The notes under the pieces were generated by a model that worked only from the letters and a program-made list of their open reading frames with translations, ran no database searches and was not told where the DNA came from. A DNA stretch of 61,000 bases, from the NCBI GenBank assembly GCA_016178625.1, contig JACOSX010000074.1, forward strand, positions 1-61,000. Reading direction: 5' to 3'. Positions 9,366 through 45,979 of this stretch are shown in pieces. Source of the stretch: Ignavibacteria bacterium. GTDB taxonomy: Bacteria > Bacteroidota > Ignavibacteria > UBA10030 > SZUA-254. How positions within the stretch are numbered: the first letter of the stretch is position 1; each line of letters starts with the position of its first letter. Position numbers and translations under genes: made by a program.

Positions 9366-10999
9366 TGAAGATTTACTTTCGCATTAAACATAACCACCCG
9401 ACCCGGAGCAACGTAGCCGCTCCACCATTCATACGCAGTGTTGAAAAGATTCGAGATCTCCAGTGACAACATAGTTCGTGGAATTGCATGAGTTGAAGCA
9501 CCGACACCAATCAACACGCGGTCTGCAAGGATTTTGCTTCCAGCGAGATCAATATTTTGTTTGCTCCAGTATTCAACAGAAGACCAAAGGGTACATGGGA
9601 CATGAAGATCAATCTCCCCGCGTCCAGCCAGTTGAACAATAGGAATCATGGGAAGTTGCCTTGTGCTGCCATCTTCAAATGCCGGTTGGATTTTCCCGGA
9701 GAATTTCAGTCGAGTATCATCGGTTGGTCTTAGCGTGCCATCCGCCTGGACATTAAACTGATTGGCATCGACATATTCGAGGCGGAGGGTATTGCTATCC
9801 GCAATTGTGATTGCACGATCAGAGGTCTTGAAAAACGATCCACGGAGCTCGAGGGAGAAGACTCCGCTGTTGTACCATAGGGAGCCTCCGAGATTTATTG
9901 GCGTTCGTTCCGACCGCAGGGTTATTTCTCTGATAAGATAAGGATTCTGTTGTACATATTCATCGTATGGAACGAGATGCATCGACGGTTGGAACCAGAA
10001 ACTTGCGACGCGGTCGTTGTCAAGTTCCCACCTTAGTACTGCAGATGGCGCAACAAGCGAGTTGCTCGCGCCATCGCTGTTCGAGCCGTGAGAATATTGT
10101 CCTCCGAAATCTAATAGCCATCGCCTTGCAATCCTCCAGGCAACTCCAAATGAAAAATCCATTAACGACGGCGATTCCGCTGATCCCTGATACGTGAGGG
10201 ATGAGCTTGAATAGGATAATCTCGTCTTAAATCTCACGTCGCCTTGAGTTGAGGCAAACGACGAAGTAAGCTGTGGGGATACAACAGTTATTTGGGAATC
10301 GACCGATGTTCCTCGGGAATCCGTCACTGACCAGATTCTCGTCACAAAGCTGATGTCGATGGCGTTGGTGTTCCGGTTAATGGAATTGAGTCTAGCATCC
10401 AGATTAATATTACTTCTCCCGCGATCAACCTTCGCACCAAGAATACCAAACATGCCATACGAATCATGCATGAACCGCGTGCCAAGGGAAACACGAAATG
10501 TTTTCAATATTTCATTATCGGTTGAGACGATTCGATGGGCGTTAACGTTCACGTCGGATGCATTCCCGTGAGCGTTCTCCGTGTGACCTTGCGTTGTGCT
10601 GAAGCCTCCGTTACCATAGAACCCCCACGCTCGTCCCTGGTAATCAACGAACCCTCGAAGATGTCCTGTGGTGAAACTCCCTAATGATCCTTCTGAAGAA
10701 ATATGCCATGGGATGAGCGGCTCTTCGTACCGCGGCAGCGAGCCAAGAGGCAGCGGAATCGCCGGCCGGCTTTCGAGCAGCGAGGTATCGGGCTGCGGCG
10801 CCTCGTAGATGTTCACGTCATAGATCTCTCCCTTGCGCGCGAAGGGAAGCGTGATTGCCTTTTTTCCAACGATCGTAATCTCAGGAATCTCCAAGCGCGG
10901 TAATCCTGCCGATGTATCCTTGGAAGAAGGTTGTCCCTGGCTCAGCGAGATACTTCTTATTAAACACAAAAGGGCAGCGACCATCATAAGGGTCTTCAT
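9362..10999 (-). CDS. Outer membrane beta-barrel, TonB-receptor-like without a plug domain
   Basis: A 545-aa protein with a signal peptide (about residues 1-20) and a short stretch LEIPEITIVGKKAITLPF (about 35-52) that resembles the TonB-box and plug entry of TonB-dependent receptors. The normal plug of about 150 aa is absent. The rest is barrel-like, with alternating strands and aromatic girdles. The C-terminus (LSLEISNLFNTAYEWWSGY, then PGRVVMFNAKVNLQ) matches the final strands of TonB-dependent receptors. It overlaps the TPR gene upstream and panC downstream, both by ATGA. A TonB-like protein, OmpA-like protein and giant TPR protein precede it in the operon, so a trans-envelope complex is plausible. 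The ligand is unknown. Confidence 0.75.
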   Translation of the reverse strand: MKTLMMVAALLCLIRSISLSQGQPSSKDTSAGLPRLEIPEITIVGKKAITLPFARKGEIYDVNIYEAPQPDTSLLESRPAIPLPLGSLPRYEEPLIPWHISSEGSLGSFTTGHLRGFVDYQGRAWGFYGNGGFSTTQGHTENAHGNASDVNVNAHRIVSTDNEILKTFRVSLGTRFMHDSYGMFGILGAKVDRGRSNINLDARLNSINRNTNAIDISFVTRIWSVTDSRGTSVDSQITVVSPQLTSSFASTQGDVRFKTRLSYSSSSLTYQGSAESPSLMDFSFGVAWRIARRWLLDFGGQYSHGSNSDGASNSLVAPSAVLRWELDNDRVASFWFQPSMHLVPYDEYVQQNPYLIREITLRSERTPINLGGSLWYNSGVFSLELRGSFFKTSDRAITIADSNTLRLEYVDANQFNVQADGTLRPTDDTRLKFSGKIQPAFEDGSTRQLPMIPIVQLAGRGEIDLHVPCTLWSSVEYWSKQNIDLAGSKILADRVLIGVGASTHAIPRTMLSLEISNLFNTAYEWWSGYVAPGRVVMFNAKVNLQ

Positions 11000-36220: not shown

Positions 36221-36396
36221 TCACTTCACAACTGCTATCTTGATAACAGCATTGCCACTTGTCCCCGTTCCTCTGGCGTCGATGTGAGCAAAATACACAC
36301 CGCTCTGGACATCGGAAACGTCCCACTCAACTTCATTATCAAGACCACCGACACCGGCGAACTCCTTCCCTCCAAAGTCCGTCACAAGATCGCCGA
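36221..36396 (-). pseudogene. Out-of-frame remnant of the M6-like protein's C-terminal sorting domain
   Basis: Reading the minus strand one base off the gene below gives GDLVTDFGGKEFAGVGGLDN, EVEWDVSDVQSGVYFAHIDA and a terminal IKIAVVK. This is the second half of the FlgD-like C-terminal domain usually fused to such M6-like proteins. The joint with the in-frame part lies at about 36391-36396, where NDFL in the upper frame meets GDLV in this one. The expected NYPNP/IRY half is missing, so about 30 codons appear deleted along with the frame change. Confidence 0.7.
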
Positions 36397-39320
36397 AGGA
36401 AATCGTTGCTGATCGGGCGTGATGATGTTGTTGATCCTTCAAAACCAGAATGTTGGGGATCATGAAGATACATTGGCCAAGGAATCTTGGTTGAATCGTA
36501 TAGAGAATTCAGCTCCCATACATAAAGATTATGATCATCCACTCCAATAGCAATACCCACTTTACCATTCTGTGTCTTGAAAATTGTTGGAGAGGCTGAT
36601 ATTTTCCCACCGGTTTGGAGAGGAAATCCTGAAAGTTGTCTCCCCCGAGAATTGTAAGCTACAATCAATCCCTCCTGCGTCCCGAGGAGAAGATCGGCTA
36701 CACCATCCCCATCAACATCTCCAATGACCGGCGTCGAAACGATTTGATTCTTCGTTTGAACTTCAATAGGAAAATTGTCAAGGATAAAACCGGAAGCGTT
36801 GATCGCGAATATCTTCCTTCCAGCTGAAAAGATAATATCTTTCTTGCCATCACCATCCACATCTCCGATCACAGGGGAAGATGAGATTGGTTCGTGAATG
36901 TCCACTGGAAAGGATGGAAGAAGTTTACCTTCAGAATCAAGAATAAAGATGTTCCCATTTTTCCCTAATATGACAGTCTCCAATTTACCATCATAACTAA
37001 AATCAGTAACGGCAGGAGAACCCACAATTTCTTCGGGTAGAGTAGTCTGCCACAATTGATTGTTGAGAGTAAATGCTCTCACTGAAGTTTCATTCTGAAT
37101 CGCAATGAAATATGATGAACGACCATACGAAGCGAAACCTGAGTAATTGCCGCTACCTCCATAGATGCCGACATGTGGCGTATCAATTCGGACAATTGCA
37201 AAACTCTCTCCGCCCCAGACAACAAAAGAATCATTCGCACAAATTGAATGTGTCGTTATTCCTGGGCCACATGCTCCAACTTCCAATCTTCTAATTCTCT
37301 CAGCATTACCAATACTATCTCGTTTCGTGGGATCATAGACCTCAGGGTAGGCACAAGGTGGATTATTCTTGCTGGCATGCCAGAGGGAAGCGATGTCAAT
37401 GATGCCGTCTTTATTAAAATCGACTGCGATCGGAGGGTTAAGCGTGTTGTCCCTTAACCAAACAAAGTTCGCCAAACTATCAGTCGTTGAAAAAAAAGAA
37501 CCCCCGTCTTGTTTCCATGCGAGAATCCTGCCATCTGTGATATATGTCGTATCTGAACTCATGGTTTTTCCTGTCGTTGAAATCAGCAGCTCAGAAATTC
37601 CATCGCCGTCTATATCAGCAGGAAGCACAGACGACATCCCAACCGCAGACCCGACGTTTTGTGGAAAACCCCGTAACGGCTTTATCATATCATCCCCCAC
37701 CTGTATCCTCGCCGTCATTCTCGGTGCCCGCTTAGAAAACTCTTTGATGTAGACATGGCTGTTTGCGCGATCGTTACTTAAGCTGCTCGGGTGCGATGTC
37801 GGCGTAAACTCGTTTGCCTGTCGACGGAGCGGAGCGTTGTTTCCATCGTACCAGAAATCAAGCACCGTGCCGTCCTCGCTGCCGGAGCCCGGACTCAAAA
37901 AGCCATACGACTGACCGATATCCTGTGAGCCGTCAGCTTCCATGAGATTCACTCCTCGGCGATCTGGATCTGCATTCACTGCATCGGACGCATATTTCTC
38001 GTCAATGACATTTTCATCGATATGCCAGACGAGAATTCCACCATCGAATAACTCATGTGTCCGTGAGCTCACGCCACCCGGCAAGCTCCAATCAAATTCA
38101 TCAACATCCGTGATCACTCCGAGAAGGGAATCTTGATTGAACGCATTGAATCCCGTTGTGTCACGCTGCCATGTCTTCACAATCGTGTTGCCGTCGTTCA
38201 CCATTGTCACTGTCGTGCCGTCGCGATGAGCATCACGGTTGCGGTTCTCGACGAGAAAGTATTCTTTCGCGCTAATAAGCACACGGTAGATCGTATCTGG
38301 ATTCACCAGACTCACGGCAGGAAGGTCATACAGCGAATCTCCGGCGGCGATGGTGATCGGTGTGATCCATCCAAGAAAATATTTCTCCCAAGCAGATGGC
38401 TCGGGCGGGAAAACGCCGTTCCAACTGAAAATGGATTGACCATCCATCAATCCAAATCGACCAATGCCCGACCGTCCGGTCTTCGTGTCGAATAAATCGG
38501 GCAAACCGAGGTGACTTCCTACGTTCGCTGCACATAATCCGTTGATACCGAGCTCCAGCAACGATGGTCCACCGATACTTTGAAGCTCACGATTTTCCGT
38601 CTCGGGGAGAATCATCGAGTTCGTAATGAATGATCCATCTCCCGCAGGTACGCCTTGATACGAACCACCGAACATCTTTTGGAGACTTGCGAGATTTAAA
38701 TAGATCGAGGGGAGATCAAACGGCGTCGGATCATAGCCGTAAAGGCTGACGAGATCGATATCCCTCCCCACGCCAGCATGAAAGATCACAAAGGCATCAT
38801 ACGTGTGAAACTGAATTCCAGGTGACACAGAATCGACCGCCTTCCACGCATCCTGCATTAATCTACCGAGTTCAATATTATTTGCGCTCGAATGGGGAGG
38901 ACTGTAATATTGCATTTGATGCGCGAGGCGATAGACAGAATCAAGAACGATCGCCTTCACAATCAGTTTCCCATCGGAAACCTTGCGATAATAGTTTTCC
39001 ACAAAGGTCATATGGTTCTGAAAATAGGCCTGGTTGCGTGGCGGACCGTCGATCACCTTTGACGAAGGTGATGAGAGATCGAAGCTTCCCGTCCCAGAGG
39101 TTCGCGAATCATTATCCTCCTGGAACGCTATCATCGCTCCGAGGATACGGAGTGTATCGGGTGTTGCAGAAGCGATACGAGCACCCTTTCCCGATACAGG
39201 ATGTGATGATGCGTAGACCAATGGATGATTAAAGATTGGCTGACGAGCTGTCTGCGCATGTAACGCGGATGAGAGCATTGACAGCAAGGATATTAACCGG
39301 ACACCGTTCCCGCTGAGCAC
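36339..39320 (-). CDS. M6-like secreted peptidase homolog with VCBS/FG-GAP repeats, C-terminus frameshifted
   Basis: A 993-aa protein from GTG 39320 with a signal peptide (to about 22). The N-terminal half (about 50-530) matches immune inhibitor A/M6-type peptidases, with VIFHAGVGRD, GLPDLFDTKTGRSGIGRFGLMD and FLGWI. The expected HExxH is replaced by NVGSH before GLPDLFD, and no HExxH occurs elsewhere, so it may be inactive. The second half holds repeated PADIDGDGISELL-, VIGDVDGDGKKDIIF- and VIGDVDGDGVADLLLG-type FG-GAP units. The last 24 residues (RRSCDGLWREGV onward) are frameshift product. It lies between porV and the lipoprotein gene. Confidence 0.8.
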   Translation of the reverse strand: MLSGNGVRLISLLSMLSSALHAQTARQPIFNHPLVYASSHPVSGKGARIASATPDTLRILGAMIAFQEDNDSRTSGTGSFDLSSPSSKVIDGPPRNQAYFQNHMTFVENYYRKVSDGKLIVKAIVLDSVYRLAHQMQYYSPPHSSANNIELGRLMQDAWKAVDSVSPGIQFHTYDAFVIFHAGVGRDIDLVSLYGYDPTPFDLPSIYLNLASLQKMFGGSYQGVPAGDGSFITNSMILPETENRELQSIGGPSLLELGINGLCAANVGSHLGLPDLFDTKTGRSGIGRFGLMDGQSIFSWNGVFPPEPSAWEKYFLGWITPITIAAGDSLYDLPAVSLVNPDTIYRVLISAKEYFLVENRNRDAHRDGTTVTMVNDGNTIVKTWQRDTTGFNAFNQDSLLGVITDVDEFDWSLPGGVSSRTHELFDGGILVWHIDENVIDEKYASDAVNADPDRRGVNLMEADGSQDIGQSYGFLSPGSGSEDGTVLDFWYDGNNAPLRRQANEFTPTSHPSSLSNDRANSHVYIKEFSKRAPRMTARIQVGDDMIKPLRGFPQNVGSAVGMSSVLPADIDGDGISELLISTTGKTMSSDTTYITDGRILAWKQDGGSFFSTTDSLANFVWLRDNTLNPPIAVDFNKDGIIDIASLWHASKNNPPCAYPEVYDPTKRDSIGNAERIRRLEVGACGPGITTHSICANDSFVVWGGESFAIVRIDTPHVGIYGGSGNYSGFASYGRSSYFIAIQNETSVRAFTLNNQLWQTTLPEEIVGSPAVTDFSYDGKLETVILGKNGNIFILDSEGKLLPSFPVDIHEPISSSPVIGDVDGDGKKDIIFSAGRKIFAINASGFILDNFPIEVQTKNQIVSTPVIGDVDGDGVADLLLGTQEGLIVAYNSRGRQLSGFPLQTGGKISASPTIFKTQNGKVGIAIGVDDHNLYVWELNSLYDSTKIPWPMYLHDPQHSGFEGSTTSSRPISNDFLRRSCDGLWREGVRRCRWS

Positions 39321-39481: not shown

Positions 39482-40642
39482 TTATTCCTCTTTGCCGCCC
39501 CAGGCGATAAGCAAGGTGAACCGCAAGGTTTCTGCCAGCGGATGGTTTTCTTCGATGGCAGAGAGGTAACTGAAATCAAATCCATACACGTCGTACCGGA
39601 CACCCGCGCCAAACGTTAAGAATTTCCGATTTCCGTATTGCGGATGTTCATAGAAATAGCCAAACCGCAACGCGACAAGTCTCGGACTTCCGTACCAGTA
39701 TTCCACCCCAGTTCCGATCTGAACCTTCTTCAACCCGCCATCACCCCAAGCGGTGAAGAGCGCCTTCGGGAGAGCATCAGGTGGGGGTGGGTCGCCGATT
39801 GTGTTTCCAACGGAATCTGTCGGAGCCGGATGTCGCCGAACGAGAAGACGCGTGAAGTCTACTACGAAGTTCACATTATTGTATTCCGTCTTGATCACAT
39901 TTGCTGCGATACCGAGACGGAGGTTTGTTGGAAGAGGATCGGCTTGATCCGCATCGATGTAGGTGAGTTTCGGACCAAGGTTAGAGATGTTCAGACCGAT
40001 ACTGAGCCTGTCACCGATTTCGCCGATTCCGGGAACCTGAAGTGCTTGAGGCTTCCACATCCCTGCAACATCGAAACTCACCGTCGATGCGACACCTTTC
40101 CTGCCCTGTCCCTGCACATCAAATGGTGCAAGGGAGCTGTGAATGTAGCGCAAGTTTAACCCCAAACCGAGATCACTGAAGAGCTTCGTGGCGTATCCAG
40201 CAGTCACCGCAGTCTCAAACGCCTTGAATGTGCTCAACGGGTCGGGACCATTCGGTCCAGTTTCGACGAACTCTCCAAGGCTGAGGTAGGTTACGCTCGC
40301 CGAAAATGTTCCCCCCCAATCGTCGAGGTGGTTTCGGTAGGAGAGAAAATCGTAAAACAGATCCGACTGTTGGAATTGCGGAAGCCAGTTGGAATGAGTC
40401 AGACTGATCTCCTGGCCTGATTGAAAAGCCAACGATGCGGGATTCCAGAACACCGCAGAGGCATCGTCAGCGAGGGCACCGCCTGCTTCCCCCATGCCGT
40501 CAGCTCGAGCGTTGGGTGCAATTAACAGAAATGGCACTGCTGACTCGCCCTGGCCCAGCATTATCTGGGGCACGAATGCCGTAGTCGCCACAAGCGCTAT
40601 AAGCGCAACGGAGAATATACTCCCGATTCTCTGTGAATTCAT
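39482..40642 (-). CDS. porV: T9SS outer membrane protein PorV (LptO)
   Basis: A 386-aa FadL-like outer membrane barrel. A signal peptide ends near MLGQG (about 31). The PorV hallmark PFLLIAPNARADGMGEAGGA, then LADDASAVFWNPASLAF, follows at once. Later strands alternate and end in LRFTLLIAWGGKEE. PorV binds cargo leaving SprA and hands it to the PorU attachment complex. It lies 125 bp after porU and has its own candidate promoter. porU-porV adjacency is a common T9SS arrangement, which supports both assignments. Confidence 0.92.
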   Translation of the reverse strand: MNSQRIGSIFSVALIALVATTAFVPQIMLGQGESAVPFLLIAPNARADGMGEAGGALADDASAVFWNPASLAFQSGQEISLTHSNWLPQFQQSDLFYDFLSYRNHLDDWGGTFSASVTYLSLGEFVETGPNGPDPLSTFKAFETAVTAGYATKLFSDLGLGLNLRYIHSSLAPFDVQGQGRKGVASTVSFDVAGMWKPQALQVPGIGEIGDRLSIGLNISNLGPKLTYIDADQADPLPTNLRLGIAANVIKTEYNNVNFVVDFTRLLVRRHPAPTDSVGNTIGDPPPPDALPKALFTAWGDGGLKKVQIGTGVEYWYGSPRLVALRFGYFYEHPQYGNRKFLTFGAGVRYDVYGFDFSYLSAIEENHPLAETLRFTLLIAWGGKEE

Positions 40643-40767: not shown

Positions 40768-43700
40768 TTATCGAGTAATACTGAATTTTCCATAAGCTTC
40801 GCTGGCGAAGCGCCCATCGAGCGTTTTCGCAATCACTTTGTACAGATACACCCCATTTGCAGGCGCGTCACCATCTTTGTCCCTTCCATCCCAGGGTACC
40901 CGAACGAATTGAGTGTTTACGTTTGGCATTTTCAGTGACTGGATTAACCGCCCGGCAACTGTGTAAATTTTCACTTCAGCATCAACACTCAAAACCTGGT
41001 TGTGCTCAAATGTGAATACGGTTGAAGTGGAAAACGGATTAGGATAATTGAAAATATTTGTGAGCTTCAGACCAACTCCAGTGAGAACATCAAACACGGT
41101 TTCCTCATTTGATGAGTTATTGTAGGTATCCCATGCACGTACGCGAAGTTTATGGGTTCCCTCAGAAAGAGGACCGAGGGAATACTCTACCGTCCCTGCC
41201 TGGAAGGAATCGGGTTTGCTCTTATAATAGTCACTCAAGTCGATACTCTGTGAACTGTTATCCAGCCATGCTTCTATCCGGTGGCCGACACCGGAGGTGG
41301 AAGTATTGATGCCGCTCGAATCGAACAGTTCGGCGGTGAGGAGTGGCGATCCGGTGACCACATCTCCCGGACGGAATCCTTTGCCATCAATGTATAAGTG
41401 GATCTGCGGTCCCTTCGTATCTGGTGGTGCAGTGGAATCTGCGCCGCTGATCCTGATGTTCGTGGTATACCCCGCCCCATCAGTTGAGTCGTTCCAGAAA
41501 TATACAATGATGCGACCAAAATTGTTGCTATAGGAGATATCCTTCGGCACGATAAAGTTTGCTCGCAAACTCCCTTGGCTAACAGTTTGTTCCCCACGGA
41601 ACAATGTACTGCCGGAAGCAACATAGGTAGTCGTGGTTGGAAAAGGCTTTGGATCCTCATGAGATGCATCAAGGGTGACGGTCCTATTCGCGTCGAACAC
41701 CACCACTTGCGCCCTGCCGTTGAAATTCATTGGCTGACCACTCGATGTATCTCTGACAGAGACGGATACTGACGCTCGCTCCAGAGCTTTCATTTGTGTA
41801 ACCCCAGTGTTCGCGACGTGATTGATGCTGTCGATCGATCCCGTGAGAGTGGGAAACGCAATGCGAAGGGCCGGATCGCCGAGGAGAAAATACTTCTTAT
41901 CGTTATTAGGATCAAAGGTTCCCTCCTGCAACGTCTGGAAAATAACATCGCCCAATCTCTTCGGCAGTACCCTACCTACACTGTCAGAGGTAAAGAGATT
42001 TCGACATAGTATTTGATTTAACAGCGCATTCTCCGCAGCATACACCGGACGATTCGCCGAGAATGTTGCAATCGCACCGGCATCGGGCATCGAGACCAGC
42101 AATTCACCACTACTTTGGTCGGTCAGCATGTCAAAATGCGAATAGTTGCACGTCGCTGCAACAAGGAAGAAATACTTTCCCTTATTGTGAAGCAGAGGGA
42201 TGTCTGTCTCTCGCACAAACACACCTTCATGAGTCCACACTCGTGGGTTACCATGTCCGGCGAAATTGAGCATCAACGTCCCCTGAGTAATTTGGTCCCT
42301 GATCGCCTGATTCACCGCAGGCTTGCGCCTTCCTCCCGCTGTAAATACCGTGGGATACTCGTACAAATAAATTTTTTTCTTCTCAAAGAGTGATGGCACC
42401 AAACGGCTGGCGTTTTCTTGATCGTTTGTGTGGGCGAAACCATTATTCCTTCCGGGGGCTTCCAATCCATCATCAGCAACAAACGTCGTACGTATTTTCC
42501 ATGGGTCATTCACCGACCTCGTTTCATACTCAATAATCTTATCGACGACAGTGTTCGCTTCCTGAAGTGAGCGCGCAGTCAACCGACCAAGACCAAGGTC
42601 GACCCGGTTCCCGTCGAAAAAGGAAACATACGCACCTTCCTCTGCATAGGTCGCCAACGGATCAAACGATTGCGGCGATTCCCATGGTGGTATCCAGTTC
42701 GGATTCGACACGATGATATTCTTGTAATCAAAATCACCGTCACCAAAGAACAACACATACTGTGGAGGAGAAGACCAATTGAGGTACACATAGCGCAAGT
42801 AATTCCGAATCGCAGCGGGAGACAACAATCCACCTCCGAACTCATTGTAAATCTGATCAACATCAACCACAAGCGTCTTGAGATAATTCGCACCCGGCTG
42901 CTCACGGTATGCCTTCAATCGCTGAGCGGCAGACATAAATTCAGAGTTGGTGATGATAATATAGGGTGCCTCATTTGGGTCACCATGCAAATTTTGATTT
43001 GCCGTTCGAATGAGTGAACCCGGAGACTTGAATCCATTTCCTCCGACAACATAGAGTTCTCTCGCAGATCCTGAATTGAGTCCAAGCTGGAACCGACATG
43101 TATCGGCGGAGATTTGGGGACTGGAAATGGACAGAACACTATCGTATTTCGTCACATCGAACACAAGTATCTGTCCCCCACTGAAACCAGTGATAGAATA
43201 TTCTGCAACGGCGTTCGTGTCAGCAGCGTGGAAATTAAAGAGATCGTTTTGCGCTGTGAGAAATCGTGGATAGAACAACTCATACCATCGAACGTATCCG
43301 TTCGATGCTGCGTCGGAGTTGACAAAGGAAAACCGAAGCTGGCTTTGCTCTCCAGTAAACGTTGGCGCCTGCACTACAGTAAGTACCCGTTCGCTAATCT
43401 GATAAGGATAGTCGCCAAACAGCGAGCCGGGAAGGAGAGTACTTACCAACGAATTGCCGTGCTCGCTGATGGTAAAGGTGGACGTCGCAGCCGAACGAGC
43501 TGCTACGTCGAACACATATTTAATCGGTTGGGAATTATCCAGCCCAGGCAAGGAATGGACGTATGTGATCTGATCATCGGCATTAATCGGCTGACCCAAC
43601 CATTCCAAGCCTGATGAGAGTAAATTTACCTTATCATCCTTGCGGAACAATTTTCCCTTGACCGTCGTTGGGCGAAATGACATTGGTTGGTTCAGCGACG

Positions 43701-44802
43701 GAACCTCGGTCATCAACTTATTTGATCCTCCGTAGGTTAACCAGTATACATTTGCTTCGGTAAAATGATTAATGTAGTGGCTAAACGTTTTGCTCGCAGG
43801 GTTGTAATTCCAACCCCGAGTCGTTTTTCCAAAGAAGATGATGTAGTCCGAAGGATCCAGTTGTCCGGGAGTTCCCCCATCATTAACGTAGACAGCATTC
43901 TGAACGAGATCATCAACGTAGGTTGCACTGATTGCCATCGGCGTCTCGTAACCTCCGTTGCCATAGATGCTTATTGTCCGGGGATCTGTCGATAAAGGAA
44001 TTCCCGCATCGAGCAACATCTGACCCGTGAGCTTATACATTCCATCCTCATTGACCGTGAAGCGATACCAAATTCCCGAGCTAAGAACGCTGTTCCGCAG
44101 GATGGTTTTCTTCTCCTGATGCTGCGGCTGGTTTACCTCGAATGCATCATCGTTGAGCGCGAGTCCACGTGCACCAGTAGCCTGCCTGATTGGAGCTTCA
44201 GGCTCCCCAAAATCTACTCGCACAATAATCCGAGTATACTTCCGAAGTATCTGATTCAATGGATTATATTGAAGGGGTCGCACTAGAAGGTTTCCGAAAA
44301 AAGCTCCTCGCGTTTCACCAATTCTGACCAACGATGCAATTTCTTGAGGAACAAATTCCGCACTGGCATAGGCTTTCGGATCGAGGGAGTATGCGGCGAT
44401 CGGACTGATCTCTCCCTGGCGGAAAGAGGGTACAGGTGCAAGATGGACATTCGGAATATCCTCATAGTCCACTTTGAGTATTTCGATTCTATTGTTTTTC
44501 TGACCCCTGAATCGCAGCAAAAATGAACGAGCTAAGAGCTCAGGCGATCCGGGTATAGACAGGTCAGGAAGGAATCCCCCGTCGAACGAGTAGCGAACAA
44601 ATTCTTCTCCCTTCAGACTAATCGTCGACGGAGATCGATACAAAGGGATAAACTCCACGACGACCCCATTTGGATCTGACCGAAGGATGCGAACATCACG
44701 ATCGTGAACCTCGCTCATGCCGATGGATACGACAAAGGCAGAAAGAAAGGCTATGACTGTTGCAGACCCACAGACGCTATGAAATTTAAAGGTGTTCATC
44801 AT
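40768..44802 (-). CDS. porU: T9SS sortase PorU (C25 family)
   Basis: A 1344-aa protein, somewhat longer than the P. gingivalis enzyme. A signal peptide (about 1-30) is followed by a gingipain-type prodomain and then a C25 peptidase domain. The predicted catalytic pair is His850 in LNFAGHGNPRVW and Cys885 in VAATCNYSHFD. The C-terminal 90 residues form a FlgD-like domain (NIFNYPNPFSTSTVF, VKIYTVAGRLIQSL, NGVYLYKVI), as expected because PorU itself crosses through the T9SS. PorU removes sorting domains and attaches cargo to A-LPS. The ATG has no clear Shine-Dalgarno site and lies 8 bases after the T-run of a terminator-like hairpin. Confidence 0.93.
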   Translation of the reverse strand: MMNTFKFHSVCGSATVIAFLSAFVVSIGMSEVHDRDVRILRSDPNGVVVEFIPLYRSPSTISLKGEEFVRYSFDGGFLPDLSIPGSPELLARSFLLRFRGQKNNRIEILKVDYEDIPNVHLAPVPSFRQGEISPIAAYSLDPKAYASAEFVPQEIASLVRIGETRGAFFGNLLVRPLQYNPLNQILRKYTRIIVRVDFGEPEAPIRQATGARGLALNDDAFEVNQPQHQEKKTILRNSVLSSGIWYRFTVNEDGMYKLTGQMLLDAGIPLSTDPRTISIYGNGGYETPMAISATYVDDLVQNAVYVNDGGTPGQLDPSDYIIFFGKTTRGWNYNPASKTFSHYINHFTEANVYWLTYGGSNKLMTEVPSLNQPMSFRPTTVKGKLFRKDDKVNLLSSGLEWLGQPINADDQITYVHSLPGLDNSQPIKYVFDVAARSAATSTFTISEHGNSLVSTLLPGSLFGDYPYQISERVLTVVQAPTFTGEQSQLRFSFVNSDAASNGYVRWYELFYPRFLTAQNDLFNFHAADTNAVAEYSITGFSGGQILVFDVTKYDSVLSISSPQISADTCRFQLGLNSGSARELYVVGGNGFKSPGSLIRTANQNLHGDPNEAPYIIITNSEFMSAAQRLKAYREQPGANYLKTLVVDVDQIYNEFGGGLLSPAAIRNYLRYVYLNWSSPPQYVLFFGDGDFDYKNIIVSNPNWIPPWESPQSFDPLATYAEEGAYVSFFDGNRVDLGLGRLTARSLQEANTVVDKIIEYETRSVNDPWKIRTTFVADDGLEAPGRNNGFAHTNDQENASRLVPSLFEKKKIYLYEYPTVFTAGGRRKPAVNQAIRDQITQGTLMLNFAGHGNPRVWTHEGVFVRETDIPLLHNKGKYFFLVAATCNYSHFDMLTDQSSGELLVSMPDAGAIATFSANRPVYAAENALLNQILCRNLFTSDSVGRVLPKRLGDVIFQTLQEGTFDPNNDKKYFLLGDPALRIAFPTLTGSIDSINHVANTGVTQMKALERASVSVSVRDTSSGQPMNFNGRAQVVVFDANRTVTLDASHEDPKPFPTTTTYVASGSTLFRGEQTVSQGSLRANFIVPKDISYSNNFGRIIVYFWNDSTDGAGYTTNIRISGADSTAPPDTKGPQIHLYIDGKGFRPGDVVTGSPLLTAELFDSSGINTSTSGVGHRIEAWLDNSSQSIDLSDYYKSKPDSFQAGTVEYSLGPLSEGTHKLRVRAWDTYNNSSNEETVFDVLTGVGLKLTNIFNYPNPFSTSTVFTFEHNQVLSVDAEVKIYTVAGRLIQSLKMPNVNTQFVRVPWDGRDKDGDAPANGVYLYKVIAKTLDGRFASEAYGKFSITR

Positions 44803-44810
44803 CTCAAAAC

Positions 44811-44844
44811 AAAAAAACCGAATGTCGGAATACCTGACATTCGG
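44811..44844 (-). terminator. Terminator hairpin directly before porU
   Basis: On the minus strand CCGAATGTC (44836-44844), 9 bases, GACATTCGG (44818-44826), then seven T (44811-44817). The porU ATG follows 8 bases later. No minus-strand gene precedes it, so it must end or attenuate the leader transcript. Confidence 0.85.
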
Positions 44845-45010
44845 TCTAAAAACCGGACCCTACTCCAATCGTTCTTGTCAAAGGTTTCCTACAGATCAAA
44901 ACGCACTTCAACGTGCGATAAATGCATGTGAGCTTCACTCACATGCCGTATACAAAACCTTTAACAAAAACTATCGAAGTACTCCGGGATGAGACATCTA
45001 ATTTAATTCT
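44811..45010 (-). ncRNA. Structured leader or small RNA before porU
   Basis: From a predicted start near 45010 to the T-run at 44811 the transcript is about 200 nt. A long stem pairs 44955-44981 with 44861-44887; its 11-bp core pairs 44955-44965 with 44877-44887 with one G-U. Inside it are a 9-bp hairpin (44924-44932 with 44938-44946, loop CTTCA) and a 5-bp hairpin (44902-44906 with 44913-44917). A terminator hairpin follows. This three-way-junction layout matches no riboswitch or 6S/SRP/tmRNA consensus I know. It could be an independent sRNA or an attenuator controlling porU. The structure is hand-folded. Confidence 0.6.
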
Positions 45011-45016
45011 TGAGTT

Positions 45017-45045
45017 AATATAGAGAATCTTTGAAAGATTGTCAA
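45017..45045 (-). promoter_or_regulatory. Near-consensus promoter for the porU leader
   Basis: On the minus strand TTGACA (45040-45045), 17 bases, TATATT (45017-45022). It is among the strongest promoter matches in the window. Confidence 0.75.
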
Positions 45046-45121: not shown

Positions 45122-45979
45122 ATGTCAAAATCGATAGCCATTCTCTTTGTCGCAAGCGAAGCTGAACCCTTCATAAAGACAGGCAGTATTGGTGATCTCG
45201 CGGGGAATCTGCCAAAAACACTTAAGGCAATGGGTCACGACATCAGGGTGATGTTACCCGGCTACGGCTCTATTAGTAATAGAAGATTTCAGATCCATAA
45301 CCTTCTGCGGATGAAAGATATCGAGGTTCCCGTCGCACGGGACCTTGAGCGAGCGAATGTGAAATCATCCTATCTTAATAGCGAGAATCAAAAGGTTCTG
45401 GTCTATTTCCTCGCCAATGATCGATACTTTAACCGACAGGGACTCTATTTTCATCCTGAGACCAAAAAGTACTTCACCGATAACGATGAGCGGTTCATCT
45501 TTTTTTGTCGTGGCGTACTGGAAACGCTGAAACGCCTGCAATGGCAGCCACAAATTATTCACTGCAACGATTGGCAGTGTGGTTTGATCCCCGCGTATTT
45601 AAAATCGATCTATAAGGACGATCCATACTTCCGGAATATGAAGACAGTGTTCACGGTCTTCAGCCTTGCTTCTCATGCCTCCTTTCCCAAGAGTTCGTTT
45701 GAGAAGACCGGACTTCCGTTAGGTTTCTTCAGGGAAAATGGGTCCCAGATGGAACGGCTGAATTTTCTCAAAGCCGGTCTTGCCTATGCCGACGTCATCA
45801 CCACCTTCGGCAGTAAGGCAGAAAAGGGGATCGTTACATCGCCAGAAGACGAGACGGAGAGGATTCTTCATGCACGCAGATCAGCCATCGTCTCCATGAG
45901 CCATCAAAATGGTAATGGCCAGGCGAGAATTGCTCAGCAACTTGTCGATATCTATCGCGACTTGGCAAAGAACAATTGA
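45122..45979 (+). CDS. Glycogen/starch synthase N-terminal (GT5) domain protein
   Basis: A 285-aa protein that matches only the N-terminal Rossmann half of GT5 glycogen synthases (full enzymes are about 480 aa). The opening IAILFVASEAEPFIKTGSIGDLAGNLPKTL parallels the ADP-glucose-binding KTGGLADV region, here altered to KTGSIGDL. IIHCNDWQCGLIPAYLK and TVFTVFSLASHASFPKS match the HCHDW and NLAYQG-type blocks. The nucleotide-sugar-binding C-terminal half is absent, so independent catalysis is doubtful. The stop overlaps the gmhB ATG (TGATG). Bacteroidota genomes often carry such short forms; a regulatory or envelope-sugar role is possible. Confidence 0.75.
   Translation: MSKSIAILFVASEAEPFIKTGSIGDLAGNLPKTLKAMGHDIRVMLPGYGSISNRRFQIHNLLRMKDIEVPVARDLERANVKSSYLNSENQKVLVYFLANDRYFNRQGLYFHPETKKYFTDNDERFIFFCRGVLETLKRLQWQPQIIHCNDWQCGLIPAYLKSIYKDDPYFRNMKTVFTVFSLASHASFPKSSFEKTGLPLGFFRENGSQMERLNFLKAGLAYADVITTFGSKAEKGIVTSPEDETERILHARRSAIVSMSHQNGNGQARIAQQLVDIYRDLAKNN

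Follow-up and report, generated by a model that had tools for sequence, protein, structure and literature searches.

The closest described counterparts of the element analyzed here are attenuators of the trp type, in which complementary strands compete (the 1:2, 2:3 and 3:4 logic) before an intrinsic terminator that precedes the first gene and that transcription must pass. Also comparable are leaders of the ANTAR and LicT type, where a 5´ RNA element, possibly read by a protein, lies upstream of an overlapping terminator, and riboswitches, where a structured leader and a terminator stand ahead of a gene. Among type IX secretion system (T9SS) genes, porU of Flavobacterium psychrophilum is known to be under transcriptional regulation (PMC9723704), and PorXY-SigP regulates the transcription of T9SS genes in Porphyromonas gingivalis (PMC7712824). 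We analyzed the leader of porU, the gene for the T9SS sortase, in 61,000 nucleotides of an Ignavibacteria bacterium (assembly GCA_016178625.1, contig JACOSX010000074.1, positions 1 to 61,000; hereafter the window). The reports on F. psychrophilum and P. gingivalis deal with sigma factors and the initiation of transcription, whereas in the present case a housekeeping-type promoter of consensus sequence stands ahead of a conserved terminator. We consider it likely that this region is a conserved cis-regulatory porU leader acting as a transcription attenuator, and it probably is a new RNA switch that decides whether porU is transcribed. No RNA leader of porU was found in the literature searched; as far as that literature shows, RNA-level control of the T9SS sortase would be described here for the first time.

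On its sequence features, we assign the leader to a new RNA family belonging to an established kind, the transcription attenuator. As in trp-type attenuators, competing complementary strands are found before an intrinsic terminator that must be passed; unlike them, the porU leader has no conserved leader peptide, controls a secretion sortase, and has a strand 3 that is often confined to the apex of the terminator. It lacks the conserved hairpin pair of ANTAR and LicT-type leaders, its inner hairpins being family-specific, and it lacks the conserved aptamer-like core of riboswitches, since the enclosed loop of 27-86 nt has no conserved sequence and no Rfam match. The parts of the leader and the gene that it precedes, all on the minus strand of the window, are as follows.

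45017 to 45045, minus strand: promoter, with the -35 element TTGACA at 45045-45040, a 17-bp spacer and the -10 element TATATT at 45022-45017 (11 of 12 consensus positions).
44971 to 44985, minus strand: 5´ element GGAG-N7-AUAG, just upstream of strand 1 (order-wide form GGAG-N5-8-YAUMG).
44956 to 44965, minus strand: strand 1, GUUAAAGGUU, which pairs with strand 2; proposed anti-antiterminator, near-invariant in alignments A2 and A4.
44853 to 44987, minus strand: long closing helix (outer stem and core, 44987-44853) with its enclosed interior, about 36 pairs with small interruptions.
44902 to 44946, minus strand: two inner hairpins, 44946-44924 and 44917-44902, family-specific and not conserved across the order.
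44877 to 44884, minus strand: strand 2, CCUUUGAC, complementary to strand 1 or strand 3.
44833 to 44839, minus strand: strand 3, UGUCAGG, in the 5´ arm of the terminator; complementary to strand 2, with a bulge in the family of the window.
44811 to 44847, minus strand: intrinsic terminator, with 5´ arm ACCGAAUGUCAGG at 44845-44833, 3´ arm CCGACAUUCGGU at 44828-44817 and T-run at 44817-44811.
40768 to 44802, minus strand: porU, the T9SS sortase gene and the gene controlled in our reading (NCBIfam NF033707, 921 bits; Peptidase_C25).

The identity of PorU is secure on its matches to NCBIfam NF033707 (921 bits) and Peptidase_C25. A first-pass annotation of the window had described a TTGACA-N17-TATATT promoter, a folded leader with a closing stem and two inner hairpins, a terminator with 8 bases between its T-run and the porU ATG, and no preceding gene on the same strand, and each of these features was recovered. 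The 208-nt transcript has a predicted folding energy of -85.9 kcal/mol compared to -46.5 ± 4.0 for 200 shuffled sequences, none of which folded as well (z -9.8). The seven T of the T-run end at 44811, leaving 8 bases (44810-44803) to the ATG at 44802, and the gene upstream of the leader (45122-45979, plus strand) is divergent from porU. A simple terminator scan missed the 44845-44817 terminator and reported an inner hairpin instead, probably owing to the interrupted stem. The terminator and the closing helix are conserved in the comparative data, and the two-hairpin interior is lineage-specific, reduced in other families to 27-60 nt without recognizable sequence. We also noted that the base of the terminator, ACCGAA/UUCGGU (44845-44817 in the window), is kept across the order in leaders of porU and of porV2-like genes, far beyond what a terminator needs.

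By DNA similarity, the element was detected in 7 of 14 further genomes from the GTDB family of the window genome, and inspection upstream of porU added four more members (G012, G009, G001 and G003). Family members share the layout, and their variable outer and inner stems still pair, with the closing-helix architecture in common despite differing outer-stem sequences. The helix core is UUGUUAAAGGUU/AACCUUUGACAA, altered in G010, the terminator is close to ACCGAAUGUC...GACAUUCGGU, and TTGACA-N17-TATATT is identical in all 11 members whose contig includes the promoter region. Since the gene order around porU is identical within the family, these data alone cannot separate a leader of porU from an element that is merely its neighbor. 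Covariance models built from 12 (R1) and 22 sequences (R2) were run over 98 genomes of the GTDB order, in which the same leader was found order-wide, with compensatory changes. R2 gave 70 matches at E ≤ 0.01, of which 68 are directly upstream of porU; of the other two, one precedes a porV2-like gene and the second is at the end of a contig. The porU-linked matches persist where the upstream gene differs from that of the window. This linkage argues for a cis-acting porU leader rather than a free-standing small RNA.

The order-wide promoter, TTGAC-N16-18-TA..T, was present in 57 of 65 leaders, with a spacer of 17 in 56 of these 57. Behind the T-run, the start codon follows at a median distance of 7 nt (≤12 nt in 47 of 62 leaders), such that porU transcription must pass the terminator and, in most leaders, no room is left for another promoter. 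Among 395 phylum-wide genomes, convincing matches were confined to the order and to three class-level loci before porU (L091, L093 and L094); weak matches at L095, L096 and L098-L100 are not before porU, look like chance and were discarded. The named relatives are groundwater metagenome assemblies labeled Ignavibacteriae, Ignavibacteria or Ignavibacteriales. In two family-f4 leaders, L086/L092 (G027) and L118 (G090), the core helix is kept and the terminator hairpin looks decayed, which may represent loss of the off switch. In the class relatives L093 and L094 (family f18), a UAGAGG motif is repeated in the porU leader, and another antiterminator is possible there, in which AAUUUCGGUUUUAUAA would pair with UUAUAAAGCCGAAUU in the 5´ arm of the terminator.

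Order-wide, conservation extends to the promoter, the GGAG-N5-8-YAUMG element, strands 1 (GUUAAAGG) and 2 (CCUUURAC), and the terminator, with strand 3 in its 5´ arm or loop. For helix 1:2 and the terminator together, 97% of cells are paired and 8 pairs are changed on both sides, giving a covariation of 0.289 compared to 0.161 for shuffled and ≤0.08 for slid alignments; in the terminator stem, 7 of 10 pairs have changes on both sides. Strand 3 varies with strand 2. It is UGUCAGG with strand 2 CCUUUGACA in family f1, GUUAAAGG or GUUGAAGG in f2, AACGUUUGAAGG in f4, and GAGGAAGGC with strand 2 GCCUUUAUC in f6. Strands 2 that start with ACCUU are matched by strands 3 that end with AAGGU, and in family f6 strand 2 has GCCUU and strand 3 AAGGC, although strand 1 retains the U.

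The mean energy of cognate 2:3 pairing was -10.2 kcal/mol compared to -6.67 kcal/mol with shuffled loops (0 of 300 shuffles as good), and in a larger set (n = 54) it was -8.26 compared to -4.42 kcal/mol. Duplexes in family f2 reach -12.7 to -15.3 kcal/mol, and the window copy has -7.7 kcal/mol. When strands were permuted across all members, 0 of 20,000 permutations did as well, a statistic that retains kinship. Permutation within families was not significant, which weighs against the attenuator reading, and the test therefore was moved to paralogous leaders within the same genome.

Such paralogues were found in families f4 and f6 before porV2-like genes, whose products resemble the PorV/PorQ family and the PorV2 model (200-230 bits, below the equivalog cut-off of that model). 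These leaders carry the strands GUUAGAG/CUCUAAC/GUURGAG, all three changed together relative to porU leaders; this concerted change supports an exchange between 1:2 and 2:3 pairing coupled to the terminator. The first non-porU leaders (L101, L138 and L140) were located by R2, and a sequence pattern then found more; the paralogous loci are L142-L151 and L101, together with G022, G047, G055 and G059 upstream of the porV2-like gene. In the nine genomes with both leaders, cognate strands 2 and 3 pair better than swapped ones in nine of nine. This comparison is free of kinship and provides the strongest support for a 2:3 pairing that would be under selection. With free R/Y positions (GTTARAG-CTYTAAC-GTTRRAG), the three-strand pattern occurs at chance level outside the order, and no such leader was found at the porV2-like gene of the window genome itself. 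The same kind of RNA switch would link two T9SS genes, porU and the porV2-like gene, in an uncultured order.

At the porU locus, promoter, leader and intrinsic terminator stand before the first gene with no promoter in between, and an alternative pairing (strand 2 with either strand 1 or strand 3, each helix excluding the other) overlaps the terminator; the pairing is weak in the family of the window, and in many leaders it reaches only the apex of the terminator stem. From these features we infer the regulation itself, both trigger and read-through. By default, strand 1 would pair with strand 2, the terminator would form and most transcripts would stop. An occupant of strand 1 or of the adjoining GGAG-N5-8-YAUMG element during RNA synthesis, possibly a protein, a 30S subunit or another RNA, would free strand 2 to catch strand 3 before the 3´ arm of the terminator emerges, and polymerase would then read through into porU and porV. 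Predicted ensembles with strand 1 free have 1:2 at 0.91 and the terminator at 0.97. With strand 1 blocked and the 3´ arm not yet made, 2:3 pairing is predicted at >0.5 in 33 of 54 porU leaders and 11 of 14 porV2 leaders. The leader is compact and strongly covarying, such that its logic should be testable by reporter, and the trigger, if found, would reveal what cells sense before building a secretion surface.

In addition to the within-family permutation, several observations count against this switch. At equilibrium the terminator is predicted to prevail as soon as its 3´ arm exists, even if strand 1 is blocked (0.83); the switch therefore would have to be kinetic, acting during transcription. 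In the window copy, the 2:3 pairing is weak and bulged (-7.7 kcal/mol) and is not predicted under any condition, even with strand 1 blocked (0.01), and the f1 members G008 and G013 have almost no 2:3 pairing. The overlap of strand 3 with the terminator is often limited to the apical part or, in porV2 leaders, to the loop, and 2:3 pairing might therefore take the form of a pseudoknot compatible with the terminator. Additionally, the search pattern, which requires matching strands, is matched by 10 of 14 porV2 leaders, and these were therefore selected for the property tested; L101, L138 and L140 came first from R2, and G022, G047, G055 and G059 from a protein search.

The pseudoknot, in which 2:3 and the terminator base would form side by side, is the chief structural alternative. 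In its broader form, a pseudoknot between strand 2 and the terminator loop, or a protein-binding site, would not act as a regulated switch and would instead set a constant basal level of read-through or the stability of the RNA. In L142 and some other porV2 leaders, the whole of strand 3 is inside the loop of the terminator, the terminator base CCGAA/UUCGG is not overlapped, and equilibrium folds keep the terminator, all as such a static element would have it; however, strand 1 is equally conserved and competes for the same strand 2 nucleotides, which suggests switching, and we regard a static element as improbable. The first-pass annotation had offered two readings, an abundant new small RNA and an attenuator that controls the T9SS sortase. 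If an independent, trans-acting small RNA stood beside porU by chance, ended by the terminator and with porU expressed by leaky read-through or from another promoter, the very strong promoter with its almost invariant spacing would fit, and the terminated product would be a stable, strongly structured RNA of ~200 nt. Yet 68 of 70 matches are directly before porU and one is before porV2, not in unrelated gene contexts, the loop interior is not conserved, the start codon is within a few bases of the T-run, and the strand 3 carried by the terminator covaries with strand 2, for which a simple small RNA has no need. A small RNA as the main function is thus unlikely, and the porU linkage, the short T-run gap and the covariation of strand 2 favor the attenuator; the terminated ~200-nt leader might still occur as a by-product small RNA.

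A 6S RNA, or another known housekeeping RNA diverged beyond Rfam, would have a similar length and rod-like shape, and Rfam 6S matches are present in several family-f6 genomes of the order. These matches are located between zapA and rny, however, and an RNA with the same conserved segments was found in that interval in 17 of 17 rny loci examined, including that of the window genome (L027). The porU leader therefore is a different RNA, and we rejected it as 6S. The Rfam 6S model detects only some of the family-f6 copies, and the other zapA-rny RNAs tested fall below detection. No match of the 6S covariance model (RF00013) to the porU leader was obtained, and Rfam as a whole gave none above the gathering score and chance matches only at E ≤ 10; given this and the linkage to porU, a diverged housekeeping RNA is extremely improbable. 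These results agree with the initial impression that the leader fits no riboswitch or 6S consensus. A riboswitch was rejected, its defining features being absent, as was an ANTAR antiterminator (two stem-loops with A1/G4 loops), since the hairpins are not conserved and the loop of 44917-44902 is GUUGAA. On contig 146 of the window genome, the 6S-like RNA (L027, within the series of loci L024-L040) is found upstream of rny at 9635-10228.

Just upstream of strand 1, most porU leaders of the order have the GGAG-N5-8-YAUMG element at an equivalent position, and the element recurs in several porV2-type leaders. It was found in 21 of 39 genera compared to 0.02 expected in shuffles, with a spacing from GGAG to AUM of mostly 8; the window copy has G where Y is usual. 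The element resembles a ribosome-binding site with an AUA or AUC, that is non-AUG, start; beyond this GGAG, 5-8 nt from AUA/AUC, the leaders have no feature suggestive of translation. No conserved short open reading frame covers strand 1, and no start codon or frame is shared among the leaders examined: MFH-like frames starting with AUG in some f1 leaders are absent from G008, G013 and G007, and frames from AUA/AUC differ among leaders and stop early. Since reading frames are not conserved, the data do not point to a leader peptide. A regulatory role for Shine-Dalgarno sequences is known in Bacteroidota, as in Flavobacterium johnsoniae, where ribosomes lacking bS21 act on that of rpsU (PMC9976891). 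A 30S subunit or a protein at the GGAG element might cover strand 1. As a speculative version, to which we assign a low probability, GGAG-N5-8-AUA/AUC may be a deliberately poor ribosome-binding site on which a parked 30S subunit covers strand 1, giving an attenuator without leader peptide common to porU and porV2-like genes; if so, transcription of a secretion sortase would be coupled to translation-initiation capacity.

Two further genes lie downstream of the leader and porU.

39482 to 40642: porV, downstream of porU.
36339 to 39320: gene for a T9SS-dependent M6-like protein, downstream of porU and porV.

On the other side, the divergent gene at 45122-45979 (plus strand) encodes a 285-aa protein that consists only of the N-terminal catalytic domain of glycogen synthase (Glyco_transf_5), and the same short length is maintained across the family.
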